A DNA stretch of 64,000 nt from Desulfocapsa sp. (lineage in GTDB: Bacteria > Desulfobacterota > Desulfobulbia > Desulfobulbales > Desulfocapsaceae): the NCBI GenBank assembly GCA_030145625.1, contig JAQYVF010000017.1:1-64000 (forward strand), in the 5' to 3' direction. This document shows positions 32,713 to 60,865 of the stretch, one piece after another. A model generated the notes under the pieces. It did not search any database. It was not told the DNA's origin and saw nothing but the letters and a program-made list of their open reading frames with translations. The stretch's first letter is position 1. Every line of letters starts with the position of its first letter. A program made the position numbers and the translations under genes.

Positions 32713-32970
32713 TTGGAATATTGCTCATTAATGATACCCTATAAAAATATAATCGCCTGCCCCCCCCACAGGTGGCAAAGAGATTTTGCCGCCTCTTTTG
32801 CCAAGATCGGCGCAGTCATGACGGCCTTCCTGTTTCCTTTACTGCTGGCGGATATCGGCACCTCGATTCTCCTCTGTATCCTGGTGAGAACCTCCCTTCT
32901 CGGTGCTTTAGTCACTGTGAAATTCGGGATAGAGACTAAGGGGATTAACCTGGAAGAAATCGGAAGATAG
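32713..32970 (+). pseudogene. C-terminal fragment of an MFS (sugar-porter-like) transporter
   Basis: 'FAASFAKIGAVMTAFLFPLLLADIGTSILLCILVRTSLLGALVTVKFGIETKGINLEEIGR' resembles the last TM helices plus the 'ETKG..LEEI' tail of MFS sugar porters; the rest is absent. Confidence 0.6.
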
Positions 32971-33103
32971 CCTGCCGAAAGAAAACATTAATCACCTCAA
33001 AAAAAATCAGATCCAGCCAGCAACTTAACCATCAATAGGTGCGACAATTTGCCACATTTACAAATTAAATATCGCCTTGTACTAATAGATTAGAATAATA
33101 CCT

Positions 33104-33170
33104 TAAAGCTAAACCCATCGTGAGATGGGGGCAGAAAGCCACGGATCTTCAATAGATAGCCGGGTTGCCT
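33104..33170 (+). ncRNA. GEMM-I cyclic dinucleotide (c-di-GMP-I class) riboswitch aptamer
   Basis: AAAGCTAAACCCATC-GTGA-GATGGGGGCAGAAAGCCACGGATCTTCAATAGATAGCCGGGTTGCC: GNRA-capped stem, conserved AAAGCCACGG block, second stem with AG bulge, GCCGGGTTGCC closing strand. Confidence 0.88.
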
Positions 33171-33198
33171 TGAATGAATGGCAACTCGGCTTTTTTTA
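33158..33198 (+). terminator. Intrinsic terminator sharing its 5' strand with the riboswitch closing strand
   Basis: AGCCGGGTTGCC...GGCAACTCGGCT 12-bp stem (one G-U) followed by TTTTTTT. Confidence 0.88.
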
Positions 33199-33315
33199 TT
33201 TAAACAGGACAAAGAATTTCACCCCACCGTCTTTAGACAGTGGGGATTAAACATCCAGACACCTCAAAAAGGAACCCACTTCCATGAAAGAGGTTATTCT
33301 CAAGATGCCAAAACT

Positions 33316-33364
33316 AGGCTTCCGAAAGGATATACGATCCCTTCGGAGGCCTTTGTCTTTTTAG
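33316..33364 (+). terminator. Second strong terminator-like hairpin in the leader
   Basis: AGGCTTCCGAAAGGAT/ATCCCTTCGGAGGCCT stem (one mismatch, one G-U) followed by TTGTCTTTTT. Confidence 0.65.
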
Positions 33365-33566
33365 CCCCGGGGAAAATTTTATTCGAACGTATCTTTTTTG
33401 TATGGAAAATTCAAATTCTCTGTACGATCAGATAGTGAAATGAACAGACCTAAATTTCTTTTCAAAAGGTGTGGATTGTATTGACAAGGCAATATTTTTT
33501 TTGGCACTGCAACGCACCATGCGGTTTTTTCATACTTAGCAAGAAATCAATTGCTGGAATAACATT

Positions 33567-34079
33567 ATGTTGACCTTGAAAAAGAATTTTTTCTTCATCA
33601 TGGCAATAACCTTTCTTGTTGGAAATATTCCACTATTCTCTGTCTGTGCTGAAATTTCCTCCAATGGTGCTGTCACCGCTTCCACAGACAAGCTTGAGTA
33701 TCACCCAGGGGAAGTAATACGGATATTTTTCACAAACAACTTACATGAAAGCGTCTTCTCCCATATCCGTAGCCTGACCCCTGTATTCTGCATCCAACAT
33801 ATTGAGAAAAAGAACACGAATGAACATTGGGACAAGCTCTCTGCCCAATGCCGCTTTCCCGACTGTACCTATGAAATAGATGCACCGGGAGAAATCAAAC
33901 CAGGAGAAAGTGAAACACTGGAGTGGAAACCGTTGGTGTTTACAGACGGCACAACGACAGCTGTTTTACCGGAGCCTGGTGTATACCGCCTGGTAATTTC
34001 TTATGAAGATTACCAGAAAAGCAAATGGCAATCTGTTTCAACCAACACATTCACAATAAACTCAGGGAGGAAAAAATGA
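33567..34079 (+). CDS. Secreted hypothetical protein (170 aa), beta-rich
   Basis: Signal peptide; 'TASTDKLEYHPGEVIRIFFTNN...PGEIKPGESETLEWKPL...PEPGVYRLVISY' pattern suggests an Ig/BsuPI-like fold; overlaps the next ORF start. Confidence 0.75.
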   Translation: MLTLKKNFFFIMAITFLVGNIPLFSVCAEISSNGAVTASTDKLEYHPGEVIRIFFTNNLHESVFSHIRSLTPVFCIQHIEKKNTNEHWDKLSAQCRFPDCTYEIDAPGEIKPGESETLEWKPLVFTDGTTTAVLPEPGVYRLVISYEDYQKSKWQSVSTNTFTINSGRKK

Positions 34080-37000
34080 AAAAAATATTCATATACATAA
34101 TGTTTACATTATGCCTGGGATTTTTACTCGAATCACCCTGCTCAACAGTCCTGGCAGAAGACACAGACATAGGTCCATCCTTGAGAAAGCTGCCTTCTGT
34201 GGCCCCGCAAGTCAACCTGTTGTCCGTGTCATCAGCACCAGGCTATTGCTCGTCTTCCGGTGGAAGTCATGCATATGAATACATCGAGGATGCGTACTAT
34301 ACCCAAATGACAGATGATACGATTTCAATAACAGTTGAAATCTACATCGCCAATCCGGATGCCTGCGTCACCGGCGAGGAATGTCCACAGTATGACAACA
34401 GTCCGGAGTATATCAACGCCTGGGTAGACTGGAACGGCGACAGTGTCTTTGAGGAAAGTGAAAGGGTTCTGAATGTAGATCTTACCGGTTATCTTGGCAT
34501 CAACTACTATGGAACCATGTCTACTAGCACCATAGTAAGCGTTCCGGAAGATGCCGTTGATATGACCTATATGCGGGTAAATCTCGGCTGGGACTTTGAC
34601 CCCAACGACCCCTGCGAAGTGTCCTGGACATGGGGTGATATCGTGGACAGGGTTGTCTCACCGCGGATCGCTGTCCCGAATATCAGCGAGATACTCGTTA
34701 CCGGAATCCCGGAGGCCTTAAATCCCATGACCAGTGACACTTCTGTGGCCGGCTCCGAGAAAGTGGAACTGGAGGCTGTAGTAGATGAAGCGGTGGGCTA
34801 TACCGTAACCGACATAAGCTGGTCCGGCGATATTGTGGCCGGCACCGGCAATCCATACGAATACATCCCCCCAGCCGGCAGTCACGGCATGAAATATGTC
34901 ATGTGCGCTATCACCTACGAGGACGATACGACGTCTGAGACCTGGACAGATACGAGAGGCCGTAATTTCAAACTCTTTTTCCCAAAAGCAGGAAACGATG
35001 ACGGGGATAGCGAACCTAACTGGTTTGAGTACTGGACGGCTGATGAGGCCGTACCCAATATTGATCTTTTTCTGTATGATCCCACCGCAACCTGGTACGG
35101 CTGCTACTGTTCCGGGAAACTGTACCTTGGCAGCAGTGCCGCAAATCAACACTATGGCAGTGCAATTGTCTTGACCGGCACCTTTTGGGGTACAGAAAGC
35201 TTCGGCGGACCGACTGTCAAAGGAGTAGACAGCGCAGCAGAGATAATTGGCCATGAAATGTATCACCTGTGGGTCAGAGATCAATGGCAAAGCGGCGGAG
35301 AATTCTATGGCGAAGATGATTCCGATGAGGGTGTCCCATGCGATACCTGCGATGATAATCTGTCCGATGACTATGAAGAAAACACGTCACACACAGATGC
35401 TGAAGACATGACCGATACCTATGACCTGGAGCACCTGAAACACTCAACTTACGAGAAATACGGAGACAATGAATACATGGCCATGAGAACCGGAGACGGT
35501 TCCCGGGGCATTGAGATCAGAGACTGGGCCAACCCCGGCAAACAGTCGGACCCGCCTTACGGCTGCCATTCACTGGGCGATTTCGGCCCGGTTCATGCTG
35601 ACCTTACAGGATATGTCACCGATATCGGCGTCGACGAGGATGGTGACGGATTATATGATTATCTGCACGTCAAGGCAGAACTCAATGTAAGCGTGGGGGT
35701 TATCTTTAAAGTTTATGCCCGGCTCATGGATCAGAGTTCAAACGAGATCACCTGGATAAGAAAAGATTTTATCCTCTATCCCGGAACCCACCTCCTCGAC
35801 CTTGATTTTGACGGGGAGGCCATTCGTGAAGCAGGTGTTAACGGACCGTACAAAATCCTTATCGTAGTCAATGATGACGAAGGTATGGATGTCGATGATA
35901 TGCTCGCTTCATACAACACGGCAGCATACGGATATGAGGAGTTTGAAGCCAAAGAGGCATATTTTGCAAGCACTTACACGGATAATGGAGTGGACGATAA
36001 TGCCAATGGGACATTCGACACCCTGAGAATAGGTGCGAATGTACAGGTTAACACTGCAAAGACCTACATGGTCGAAGCCGGACTCTATGACAGTCTTGGC
36101 AAGGCCATAGAAATGGTTAGTACGTCCATGGCCTTAGGTGCAGGTCTGCAAACAATAAACCTTGACTTTGATGGACAGAAAATCAGAAGAAACCGCGTTG
36201 ATGGCCCATATTTCCTCAAGTATTTAAGTCTCAGCGGCAGCCCGCAAATTGACTTTGTCCTTGATGCATATAGCACCAATTCCTACAACTTCACTCAGTT
36301 TGAGCAAACAGATGCAATGTTTACCGGCACCTATTCAGACTGGGGGAAAGACACAGACTCGGACACCTATTACAACTACCTTACCGTGGCAGTCGACCTT
36401 GATGTCCAGGTAGCCGGAAACTACAGCCTGACCGGCTGGCTTTACGACACCAGCGGCAAGATTGTTCAGGTAAGTTCATCCGCTTTACTGGGAACCGGGC
36501 CTCAAACCATGGAGTTGGATTTTGAGGGAACCAGTATTTATCTCAATGGAGTCGACGGACCGTATTATGTGAAGTACCTGACCCTGTACAACAATTCAGG
36601 TACGCTCATGGATACAATTAATGATGCCTACACAACCGCTCCATACAACTATACCGATTTCCAGAGACCGTTAGTCGGCCTGACCGGAATCTATGATGAT
36701 TTTGGTTCAAACGTCGATACAGATGGAAAATTCGGCAGCCTGAGCGTTGAGCTGGGAGTATTCCTGGCCAATTCCGGCTATTGTGTTGCCAAGGCAAGGC
36801 TGACAGACGGTGACCAGAAAGAGATCGTCTGGGCCGAAAAGATAGTCTCATTCACCTCTGCCGGCGCAGGAACCATTCAGCTGGATTTCGACGGCGAGGC
36901 CATCTATGACAATGGTGCTGACGGACCATATTTCCTACGGGATGTCTATATCTATCATACAGGCGACCCGATGCAGCCGGCATATCTGCATGAGGCCTAC

Positions 37001-37675
37001 ACAACCACCGAATACGGGTTCTGTGACTTCGGCCCTTGTCCGCCGGAGGCAGATGCCGGACCCGACCAAACCGTACCTATCGGCCCTGCCTGCCTGGCAT
37101 CGGTTGAACTTGACGGATCCACATCCTCTGACCCTGACGAAGACCAACTGTTGTCTTACAACTGGACCTGGGATGTGCTTGGAGTACCGCAGTCAGCTTC
37201 TGGCGAGAATCCAACCATTGAACTGCCGTTGGGTATTCACACCGTAACCCTGGTTGTCAATAACGGGATCATGGATTCTGAGCCCGATACTGTTATCATA
37301 ACCGTGATTGACAGCACAGCACCGAGTATCAGCGTTACAGCAACTCCGGACAGATTATGGCCGCCAAATCACAAGATGCATTCTGTGTCCATGGCGGTAA
37401 CGGTCCAAGACTCTTGTGATCCGGCGCCTGAAGTACTCCTCACCTCGGTTGTAAGCGACGAACCTGATGAGAATCCTTCAGGAAAGGATGGCAATACCAT
37501 AAATGATATTCAGGATGCCGACATCGGAACTGAGGACTATGAAATTTCCCTCAGATCGGAGCGAGATGAAGAAGAGGACGGCCGCACCTATACCATTACC
37601 TACATGACCATTGACAGCTCCAGCAATACCGCTGCTGCCAGTGCTGTGGTAACGGTACCGCTCCATAACAATTAA
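34076..37675 (+). CDS. Large secreted protein with GEVED-like region, HExxH motif, four ~110-aa internal repeats and a PKD-like domain
   Basis: Signal peptide MKKIFIYIMFTLCLGFLLESP; 'NAWVDWNGDSVFEESERVLN'; 'IIGHEMYHLWV'; repeated 'LDFDGxxI...GVDGPYxxKYL'; 'ADAGPDQTVPIG...LDGSTSSDPDEDQLLSYNWTW'. Confidence 0.88.
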   Translation: MKKIFIYIMFTLCLGFLLESPCSTVLAEDTDIGPSLRKLPSVAPQVNLLSVSSAPGYCSSSGGSHAYEYIEDAYYTQMTDDTISITVEIYIANPDACVTGEECPQYDNSPEYINAWVDWNGDSVFEESERVLNVDLTGYLGINYYGTMSTSTIVSVPEDAVDMTYMRVNLGWDFDPNDPCEVSWTWGDIVDRVVSPRIAVPNISEILVTGIPEALNPMTSDTSVAGSEKVELEAVVDEAVGYTVTDISWSGDIVAGTGNPYEYIPPAGSHGMKYVMCAITYEDDTTSETWTDTRGRNFKLFFPKAGNDDGDSEPNWFEYWTADEAVPNIDLFLYDPTATWYGCYCSGKLYLGSSAANQHYGSAIVLTGTFWGTESFGGPTVKGVDSAAEIIGHEMYHLWVRDQWQSGGEFYGEDDSDEGVPCDTCDDNLSDDYEENTSHTDAEDMTDTYDLEHLKHSTYEKYGDNEYMAMRTGDGSRGIEIRDWANPGKQSDPPYGCHSLGDFGPVHADLTGYVTDIGVDEDGDGLYDYLHVKAELNVSVGVIFKVYARLMDQSSNEITWIRKDFILYPGTHLLDLDFDGEAIREAGVNGPYKILIVVNDDEGMDVDDMLASYNTAAYGYEEFEAKEAYFASTYTDNGVDDNANGTFDTLRIGANVQVNTAKTYMVEAGLYDSLGKAIEMVSTSMALGAGLQTINLDFDGQKIRRNRVDGPYFLKYLSLSGSPQIDFVLDAYSTNSYNFTQFEQTDAMFTGTYSDWGKDTDSDTYYNYLTVAVDLDVQVAGNYSLTGWLYDTSGKIVQVSSSALLGTGPQTMELDFEGTSIYLNGVDGPYYVKYLTLYNNSGTLMDTINDAYTTAPYNYTDFQRPLVGLTGIYDDFGSNVDTDGKFGSLSVELGVFLANSGYCVAKARLTDGDQKEIVWAEKIVSFTSAGAGTIQLDFDGEAIYDNGADGPYFLRDVYIYHTGDPMQPAYLHEAYTTTEYGFCDFGPCPPEADAGPDQTVPIGPACLASVELDGSTSSDPDEDQLLSYNWTWDVLGVPQSASGENPTIELPLGIHTVTLVVNNGIMDSEPDTVIITVIDSTAPSISVTATPDRLWPPNHKMHSVSMAVTVQDSCDPAPEVLLTSVVSDEPDENPSGKDGNTINDIQDADIGTEDYEISLRSERDEEEDGRTYTITYMTIDSSSNTAAASAVVTVPLHNN

Positions 37676-37698: not shown

Positions 37699-37731
37699 AA
37701 AGGCAGGGTCATAAATGGCCCTGCCTTTTTT
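37699..37731 (+). terminator. Intrinsic terminator after the large secreted protein
   Basis: AAAGGCAGGGTCATAAATGGCCCTGCCTTTTTT. Confidence 0.85.
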
Positions 37732-37739
37732 ATTCAGAC

Positions 37740-38173
37740 GGATAAAAATACCATCCTCGGATAGTGGTGCCGGAGTGGGAAATACAATATTGGCGAGTGG
37801 CTCAAAAGGGATATACATCGGCTTTTCCAGTGACAATAATTCGGTGCAGGAAAACATGATAGGGACAGATGGAACGCATAACTGGGGCAATTCCAATAAC
37901 GGCATATCTCTATGGGACGTGGCAGGTACCGTAATTTATAGAAATGAGATTGCATTTAACAATAGTGGCTCTTCACCCGACTACGGCGGTATCCTCATTC
38001 AGACTGCCGGCTCAATAAGCAATAGAATAAGCGAAAACTCCATTCACGACAATGAAGGCCTGGGCATTACCCTCCTGAGCAGTGCCAATGGATCAATTTC
38101 GCCTCCGGTTCTTTCCATAGTTGGAAAAAATTACGCCTTCAGCAGTAAAGGATTTCTGCCGAAACCGGTCTGA
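37740..38173 (+). pseudogene. Remnant of a right-handed parallel beta-helix repeat protein
   Basis: 'NSVQENMIGTDGTHNWGNSNNGISLWDVAGTVIYRNEIAFNNSG...NRISENSIHDNEGLGI' beta-helix repeats. The only ATG lies inside the preceding terminator. Confidence 0.55.
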
Positions 38174-59830: not shown

Positions 59831-60865
59831 ATGGACGTACTTCCAGCTACCTATGCCGGTCGAATTCTCACTGGCGATTACAGCCGCACTTTGCAGGAAC
59901 GAACATTTTCTATTATCAAAGCATCACAACAGTTTGACAATTACAGTTTTCCCCTGATGCCCTATATCACAGCTTGGAACCAGGAGGACAACACCATCTG
60001 GTATGAATTTGTGGGACAACAGCTTATGGATCTACTGGACACAACTCCCGATAACATGTCCAGAGCTTTCAGGAACGCCATTCAGGATCAACGCATATTC
60101 CACTATACCGATGTTTCACAATCCGAAGTGGAAGAAGAGGTCATCACGCGCAACCAGATCTCTGACAAACGTCATAATCTTAGGCAAAATGTTCAGAAAA
60201 ACAAAAAAGTTGAGGCAGTATATCAGATAGCCTTACCCTCGGGGAATACCATATGGCTTAAGGATCGTGGTAAAGTCGAACTCTTCCCTGGTGACAACAT
60301 CACACTGACCCTGGGATGCCTCACCGATGTCTCCAAGGAAATGGAGCAAAAGTTATTTCTTGAGCAGATTGGGTATTTTGACGATCTCACAGGCCTTCCC
60401 AAAAGAAATATTTTGGATAAACTCTTTGAAATTCGCACAGGCGAAAGACAGAGGGGCTATATTAAAGAATTCTCTGTACTCATGATCGATATCGATCATT
60501 TCAAATCAATAAATGACACCTATGGCCACCAGGCAGGAGATTTCATTCTCAAAGAAATGGCGACCCTCATAAGCTCTTTAAAGCGAAAAGAAGAAACTAT
60601 CGGCCGCTATGGCGGAGAAGAATTTTACGGAATATGTCGAGGACCCCTGCAGAGCGGTGTGGAATTAGCGGAACGAATACGTCGCAATATTGAACGTCAT
60701 GTATTTACTCACAACAATAAAGATATCAACATCACCATATCTGCTGGAGTTGCGTCCACCGAGGAAATGGAACAGGGTTCAATGGATACGCTCCTTGCCC
60801 TTGCCGATAAACGCTTATATCAGGCAAAACACCAGGGAAGAAACAAAGTAATAGGAAAAGAATAA
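59831..60865 (+). CDS. Diguanylate cyclase (GGDEF) with N-terminal PAS-like region
   Basis: 'DDLTGLPKRNILDKLFEIRTG', 'FSVLMIDIDHFKSINDTYGHQAGDFILKEMA', 'IGRYGGEEFYGIC' (GGEEF active site). Confidence 0.93.
   Translation: MDVLPATYAGRILTGDYSRTLQERTFSIIKASQQFDNYSFPLMPYITAWNQEDNTIWYEFVGQQLMDLLDTTPDNMSRAFRNAIQDQRIFHYTDVSQSEVEEEVITRNQISDKRHNLRQNVQKNKKVEAVYQIALPSGNTIWLKDRGKVELFPGDNITLTLGCLTDVSKEMEQKLFLEQIGYFDDLTGLPKRNILDKLFEIRTGERQRGYIKEFSVLMIDIDHFKSINDTYGHQAGDFILKEMATLISSLKRKEETIGRYGGEEFYGICRGPLQSGVELAERIRRNIERHVFTHNNKDINITISAGVASTEEMEQGSMDTLLALADKRLYQAKHQGRNKVIGKE

Follow-up and report, generated by a model that had tools for sequence, protein, structure and literature searches.

A c-di-GMP-I riboswitch probably arranged in series with a second, recurrent attenuator-like element upstream of an exported-protein operon in Desulfocapsa sp.

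The window analyzed here, a stretch of 64,000 nucleotides from a Desulfocapsa sp. contig, carries a likely operon for two exported proteins and a beta-helix protein, preceded by a long structured leader, and a gene for a GGDEF protein further downstream (Table 1). The second gene of the operon overlaps the first by 4 nt, and its product is 91% identical to the orthologue in the relative G002 (MAG Old_saline_glass_biofilm.mb.15). An earlier note, made from the sequence of this DNA alone, had placed a secreted-protein operon behind a riboswitch with an overlapping terminator (terminator 1). The exported-protein operon is indeed present downstream, but it does not directly follow this terminator: its first gene starts ~370 nt further on, and a second element (element 2) lies in between. 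An open reading frame at 33178-33435 was discarded as spurious, as it starts within the terminator and the orthologous locus does not preserve its frame.

Table 1. Positions of the leader features, the downstream genes and the diguanylate cyclase gene in the window
Feature	Position	Strand	Remarks
-10-like hexamer TAGAAT	33091-33096	+	weak; TATAAT in the G002 orthologue; directly before the aptamer
c-di-GMP-I (GEMM-I) aptamer	33099-33173	+	RF03167, RF01051, covariation over 55 copies
G20-equivalent, ligand contact, G	33108	+	G in 55/55 (alignment A2)
A47-equivalent, A	33135	+	A in 55/55; RF03167 consensus has G (cmscan alignment)
Terminator 1	33158-33197	+	12-bp stem 33158-33169/33180-33191, U tract to 33197
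C92-equivalent, C	33168	+	C in 53/55, T in 2; also inside the terminator 5′ arm
Small hairpin H1, CCCCAC...GTGGGG	33222-33245	+	similar hairpin sequence in G002 and G246
Element 2, second attenuator-like element	33257-33362	+	models R1-R3; window match 89.2 bits
Stem H2, ACCTC (33261-33265)/GAGGT (33290-33294)	33261-33294	+	encloses SD-like AAGGA and start codon
Short leader ORF, MKEVILKMPKLGFRKDIRSLRRPLSF	33284-33364	+	stop 33362-33364; family consensus MxEVxxKxPx-stop; usual stop lost
Terminator 2 (H3)	33316-33362	+	stem 33316-33352, then TTGTCTTTTT; -23.5 kcal/mol, z -5.2
170-aa exported protein	33567-34079	+	signal-peptide-like N-terminus; no Pfam match; orthologues in G002 and G246
1199-aa exported protein	34076-37675	+	HEMYH zinc-protease-like motif; GEVED and DUF4785_3rd domains
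152-aa beta-helix protein	37715-38173	+	NosD/Beta_helix; last gene of the likely operon
GGEEF diguanylate cyclase	59831-60865	+	canonical specificity residues; Pfam GGDEF E 1.8e-40

A cmscan search of the whole 64-kb window on both strands against 4227 families returned a single match over threshold, to c-di-GMP-I-GGC (RF03167) at 33099-33173(+), with 63.9 bits (E 9.1e-13) against a gathering score of 59; at the same place, the parent model RF01051 scores 60.1 bits against a gathering score of 35. The earlier note had named a GEMM-I aptamer and proposed an Infernal run with RF01051 as a check, and both models bear it out; moreover, every motif that it quoted, from the capped stem and the conserved block to the two arms of the terminator, is exact in sequence and position. 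These comprise the GNRA-capped P2 (CCCATC-GTGA-GATGGG, 33114-33129), the conserved block AAAGCCACGG (33135-33144) and a second stem with an AG bulge (CGGATCT...AGATAGCCG, 33142-33162). Folded alone, 33108-33168 forms P2 and P3, as expected, and the fold of aptamer plus terminator reaches a z-score of -4.5. P1 consists of three pairs (AAG/CUU or covarying versions) in many copies and retains one of the three in the window copy, whose affinity may be lower owing to this near-absent helix. Transcription may, however, begin very close to the aptamer itself. The promoter of the window copy is weak by consensus, and a -10-like match also occurs in about half of the shuffled upstream regions and is not significant alone; near aptamers overall, the -10 scan yielded only slightly more matches than shuffles, and a promoter scan of 32900-33600 found no sigma-70 promoter above chance. 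A match to psRNA14 on the minus strand, far below its threshold, was set aside as chance.

The sub-type of the aptamer can be read from three canonical contacts, G20, A47 and C92, which we assigned by mapping onto the Vc2 aptamer in what we take to be its numbering. All three are present in the window copy, and we compared them with their equivalents in alignment A2, which holds 55 GEMM-I copies from seven genomes (Table 1). At first glance, the higher score of RF03167, which recurs at several other strong copies in the genome, would favor a c-di-GMP-I-GGC variant that senses a different ligand. The consensus of that model, however, has a G at the A47-equivalent (model position 37), where the window and all 55 aligned copies have A. 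If “GGC” is read as G20-G47-C92, as the RF03167 consensus suggests, the window aptamer would be G-A-C, the canonical c-di-GMP type, and the GGC label, though best-scoring, is probably wrong for it. Since c-di-GMP covariance models tend to recognize the same sequences (PMC9943018), the RF03167 label is no evidence for another ligand, and we regard such a variant as very improbable. More generally, the case illustrates that the best Rfam label can misname a riboswitch sub-type.

An aptamer selective for cGAMP, or responding to both dinucleotides, has somewhat more to recommend it, as GEMM-Ib switches for cGAMP serve surface proteins in Geobacter (PMC6456294, PMC8835794). The site that sets selectivity is G20 (PMC9262584). 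The earlier note had considered selectivity impossible to assign by eye, with cGAMP as an alternative; inspection of the specificity purine in the alignment showed that this site is readable and does not favor cGAMP. An A at position 20 marks GEMM-Ib aptamers, and the equivalent position is G in every aligned copy. Likewise, an S instead of the D in GHxxGD marks the Hypr cGAMP synthases, and it was seen in none of the intact GGDEF domains of the genome, the canonical D being found in every one read (about 25 domains). The GGEEF gene to which the earlier note pointed as a possible source of c-di-GMP is genuine and canonical, yet the genome has 32 GGDEF matches in all, of which this gene accounts for one. 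Judged by the aligned aptamers and the intact GGDEF domains, a cGAMP-selective or dual aptamer of the GEMM-Ib kind is improbable in our estimation. Because the G20, A47 and C92 equivalents are canonical and no Hypr-type GGDEF was seen among the intact ones, we infer c-di-GMP as the expected ligand.

Single copies elsewhere deviate at these positions. A low-scoring GEMM-I copy (L048, G000:C143:8486-8560(+), 37.6 bits) carries an A at the position-20 equivalent, as would be expected of a cGAMP-type switch; it is otherwise degenerate and has kept its terminator. Two copies in two species, located before similar genes, have T at the C92-equivalent (L040:10447-10561(-) in G000:C95 and L151:1374-1488(-) in G007:C99), and in both the terminator partner has changed to match; their ligand affinity or preference may be altered.

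The 3′ strand of P3 is also the 5′ arm of terminator 1: AGCCGGGTTGCC (33158-33169) pairs with GGCAACTCGGCT (33180-33191) over 12 bp, including one G-U, and is followed by T7 (33191-33197), whose first T forms the last stem pair. Terminator 1 alone folds with -21.9 kcal/mol (z -6.2), and in the 100-nt leader the structure of lowest energy (-38.1 kcal/mol) is the one with the terminator; a consensus terminator scanner, which allows loops of up to 8 nt, missed terminator 1 because its loop has 10. Both folds have left coevolutionary traces across the 55 copies. In the aptamer helices, 97.4% of the cells are paired and 11 of 18 pairs show two-sided changes, with covariation in P2 and P3 that beats all slid versions and, whichever measure is used, nearly all of the 500 shuffles. 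In terminator 1, the corresponding values are 98.2% and 6 of 12 pairs, and the number of pair types is the only measure on which it does not surpass the controls. Of 63 copies, 60 have a terminator-like hairpin that begins inside the aptamer. Identity between the window and G002 is 95% for the aptamer core, compared to 77% for the upstream sequence, 77% for the terminator loop and 3′ arm and 74% for the sequence past the terminator.

Because both folds covary above controls, the strand 33158-33169 is selected for two mutually exclusive partners, as is characteristic of the expression platform of a riboswitch. The aptamer/terminator overlap with its 12-bp stem and T7, as well as the ON logic that the earlier note had predicted from it, thus gain support from a strand on which two folds are conserved. 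Since the terminator dismantles P3 and the C92-equivalent, ligand binding should block termination, and this supports a transcriptional ON switch in the predicted direction. The aptamer would fold first while RNA polymerase transcribes the leader; bound c-di-GMP would then hold the P3 3′ strand and C92 in the aptamer and block the terminator at 33158-33191, while in the ligand-free RNA the strand would move to the terminator and transcription would stop. The same logic has been reported for the pilM riboswitch of Geobacter (PMC9262584).

Taken alone, the riboswitch is another copy of the well-known c-di-GMP-I kind. The 4.98-Mb draft genome holds 19 strong and four weak GEMM-I copies, and copy numbers range from 0 to 21 across the genus; Candidatus Desulfatifera sulfidica (Desulfobulbales) is a member of the family. 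By eye, 14 of the 16 readable first genes downstream of these copies look exported. In Geobacter, GEMM-I riboswitches likewise stand in many copies before surface proteins, with 17 in G. sulfurreducens (PMC6456294). With the present riboswitch, Desulfobulbales-type bacteria gain a clear regulon of exported proteins, predicted to respond to c-di-GMP through many copies of the switch.

Several further features of this regulon deserve mention. A mature N-terminus like (A)(D/H)(K/N)VVVIPLN (e.g., ADKVVVIPLN), over which we found no Pfam family, is common to several riboswitch-controlled exported proteins (L037:587-1003(-), L043:2393-3031(-), L040:8372-9304(-), L049:1763-2812(-) and L038:10375-10854(-)), and the sequence behind it is either unrelated or of the beta-helix type. 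Many group-B GEMM-I copies, such as L041 (G000:C12:28593) and L141 (G002:C11), are preceded at a distance of ~70 bp by a palindrome, AAAATGGGTAAATATACCTATTTT, which is exact in three genomes, degenerate at other copies and looks like a transcription-factor operator. Fifteen near-alike copies of the CAAACTTTGAG type (among them L041, L042, L043, L044, L045 and L046 in G000 and L150, L152, L153, L155, L157 and L160 in G007) have ~110 nt upstream and ~60 nt downstream in common and differ in their genes, a pattern that a regulatory cassette spreading through the genome by copying would leave. At L045:5032-5234 (G000:C121), two GEMM-I riboswitches, each with its own terminator, stand in tandem before one exported-protein gene.

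The region past terminator 1 was at one point considered a decayed insertion element, an idea that was dropped when conserved stems were found. The segment 33219-33365 folds far better than shuffled versions (-50.7 kcal/mol, z -5.4) and contains, behind a small hairpin (H1), the stem H2, a short ORF and the terminator-like hairpin H3. H3 is paired in G002 and mostly paired in G022 and G072; the G002 hairpin is 58% identical to that of the window, fully paired and carries four two-sided changes. Across 35 copies, two pairs of H2 show two-sided changes, and in its inner hairpin (GGAA/UUCC versus GGAG/CUCC) the pairing register shifts between copies. The short ORF has its start within the stem, and its end coincides with the terminator arm or reaches slightly into it. 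Its peptides fall into two classes, MxEVxxKxPx-stop, to which the window belongs, and M(K/R)xxFxKVPI-stop elsewhere, with MRRSFLKVPI, MKEGVQKVPI and MKRSFQKGPI as examples of the kind seen in distant copies. In the window the usual stop has changed from TAA to CTA, and in G002 to GAA, so that the frame extends into the hairpin or beyond it; because of this loss, element 2 may work differently or be decaying in these two genomes.

To trace element 2 further, we built models of increasing breadth, R1 from two sequences (window and G002), R2 from four and R3 from 35. R1 found two copies in another genus, before an operon whose genes we named by eye as NifX-like and Mrp ATPase; R2, run on 258 genomes of the class, gave 44 places in 20 of them, with up to ten in one genome, and R3, run on 395 genomes of the phylum, gave 65 places in 23; two genomes occur in both sets. 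Together, this amounts to ~100 copies in ~40 genomes of the phylum, counted on rough E-values that stand without a false-positive rate from shuffled genomes. Among 28 phylum matches listed, two (L350 and L356) were not recognizable as members, perhaps because they are offset near contig ends. At L286:4156-4266 and L287:6171-6281(-), element 2 lies directly before an operon of NifX-like and Mrp/NBP35 ATPase genes that resembles the orp (orange protein) operon. No Rfam 15 family reached its gathering score over element 2 in the window or at the other element loci, and we found no description of it in the literature, of which our coverage was incomplete; it is apparently an undescribed leader element.

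Element 2 copies precede unrelated genes and are mostly found with no riboswitch nearby. Three species (G000, G002 and G246) have the riboswitch first, then element 2, then the operon, and the last of them belongs to another family and has the orthologous operon with an intact short ORF (MKEVILKMPI-stop). In G004 the order is reversed, with element 2 directly before a GEMM-I riboswitch. Given the conserved tandem in G246 and the reversed one in G004, element 2 appears to behave as a regulatory unit in its own right, which can be joined to riboswitches.

How element 2 might act depends on whether its short ORF is translated. It could be a plain structured RNA, such as an orphan riboswitch or an sRNA, in which the ORF is incidental: stem H2 dictates part of the ORF sequence (GAG GTN), 16 of 40 copies have no stop by codon 12, and the usual stop is absent from the window copy. 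On the other hand, codon 7 is Lys in 31 of 40 copies (AAG in 10, AAA in 21) and codon 9 is Pro in 21 of 40, with all four codons (CCA/CCG/CCC/CCT) in use. Because these codons lie outside the stems and their third bases are free, they argue for translation, and a ten-residue peptide is encoded in 34 of 71 copies; a plain structured RNA thus seems to us rather unlikely, albeit less so than any other alternative considered here. A classical 1-2-3-4 attenuator was rejected, as the alternative 2:3 pairing is, by eye, absent in several distant copies, and the lack of a run of regulatory codons in the element 2 peptides speaks against an amino-acid biosynthesis attenuator. Most likely, terminator 2 would be kept open by a ribosome that translates the short ORF or pauses on it, as the start codon of this ORF lies in a stem and its end abuts or overlaps the terminator. 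We give roughly even chances to the broader proposal that element 2 is a new, phylum-wide regulatory leader of Desulfobacterota, in which translation or arrest of a peptide of about ten residues by the terminator controls read-through, and which, placed in series with c-di-GMP riboswitches in either order, provides two-input control.

As element 2 lies between terminator 1 and the operon, relief of terminator 1 may not be enough for operon expression. The main rival concerning the effect of the riboswitch on the operon is masking by terminator 2, which would be dominant, leaving the riboswitch with no measurable control over the operon and perhaps only a ~260-nt transcript with a small ORF, the operon promoter lying further down. 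The hairpin at 33316-33352 with its U tract is strong and conserved, the first gene is remote from terminator 1, and in the Bacillus Bc1 riboswitch the second terminator masks the ligand response of the first (PMC11218506). Against this, G246 keeps the riboswitch, element 2 and the same operon in order despite belonging to another family, and most copies of both elements sit close before genes, which is most easily explained if both act on the operon; the promoter scan of 32900-33600 mentioned above adds weak evidence in the same direction. We therefore consider masking unlikely. Taken together, the leader at 33099-33362 probably comprises two attenuators in series before the exported-protein operon, the first of them a c-di-GMP ON switch. 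Element 2 is the part of this leader worth following: if the proposal holds, it is an uncatalogued, widespread attenuator with a conserved peptide, whose signal and mechanism the natural tandem with a riboswitch would make directly testable.

Compared with c-di-GMP-I (GEMM-I, RF01051), the window aptamer has the same fold, conserved core, GNRA-capped P2 and G20, A47 and C92 equivalents, but its P1 is very short or absent, it is one of ~20 copies in the genome and a second attenuator follows it. From c-di-GMP-I-GGC (RF03167), the top-scoring model, it differs in the consensus G at the A47-equivalent. With the cGAMP-responsive GEMM-Ib ON switches of Geobacter (pilM, pgcA) it shares the terminator-aptamer overlap, the ON logic and the many copies before surface or exported proteins, whereas it has G instead of A at the position-20 equivalent and no Hypr cyclase was seen among the intact GGDEF domains. 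Like the dual-terminator c-di-GMP riboswitch Bc1 of Bacillus (PMC11218506), the leader has two serial terminators between aptamer and gene, although here the second is part of an element that recurs elsewhere and brings along a stem and a short ORF. A short ORF beside a leader terminator is also the hallmark of leader-peptide attenuators (trp/his and TnaC-type arrest peptides). Unlike trp/his attenuators, element 2 has no regulatory codon run, and its 2:3 pairing, possible in some copies, is not conserved in the wider set; its conserved peptide, MxEVxxKxPx or M(K/R)xxFxKVPI, could be matched to no known leader peptide.
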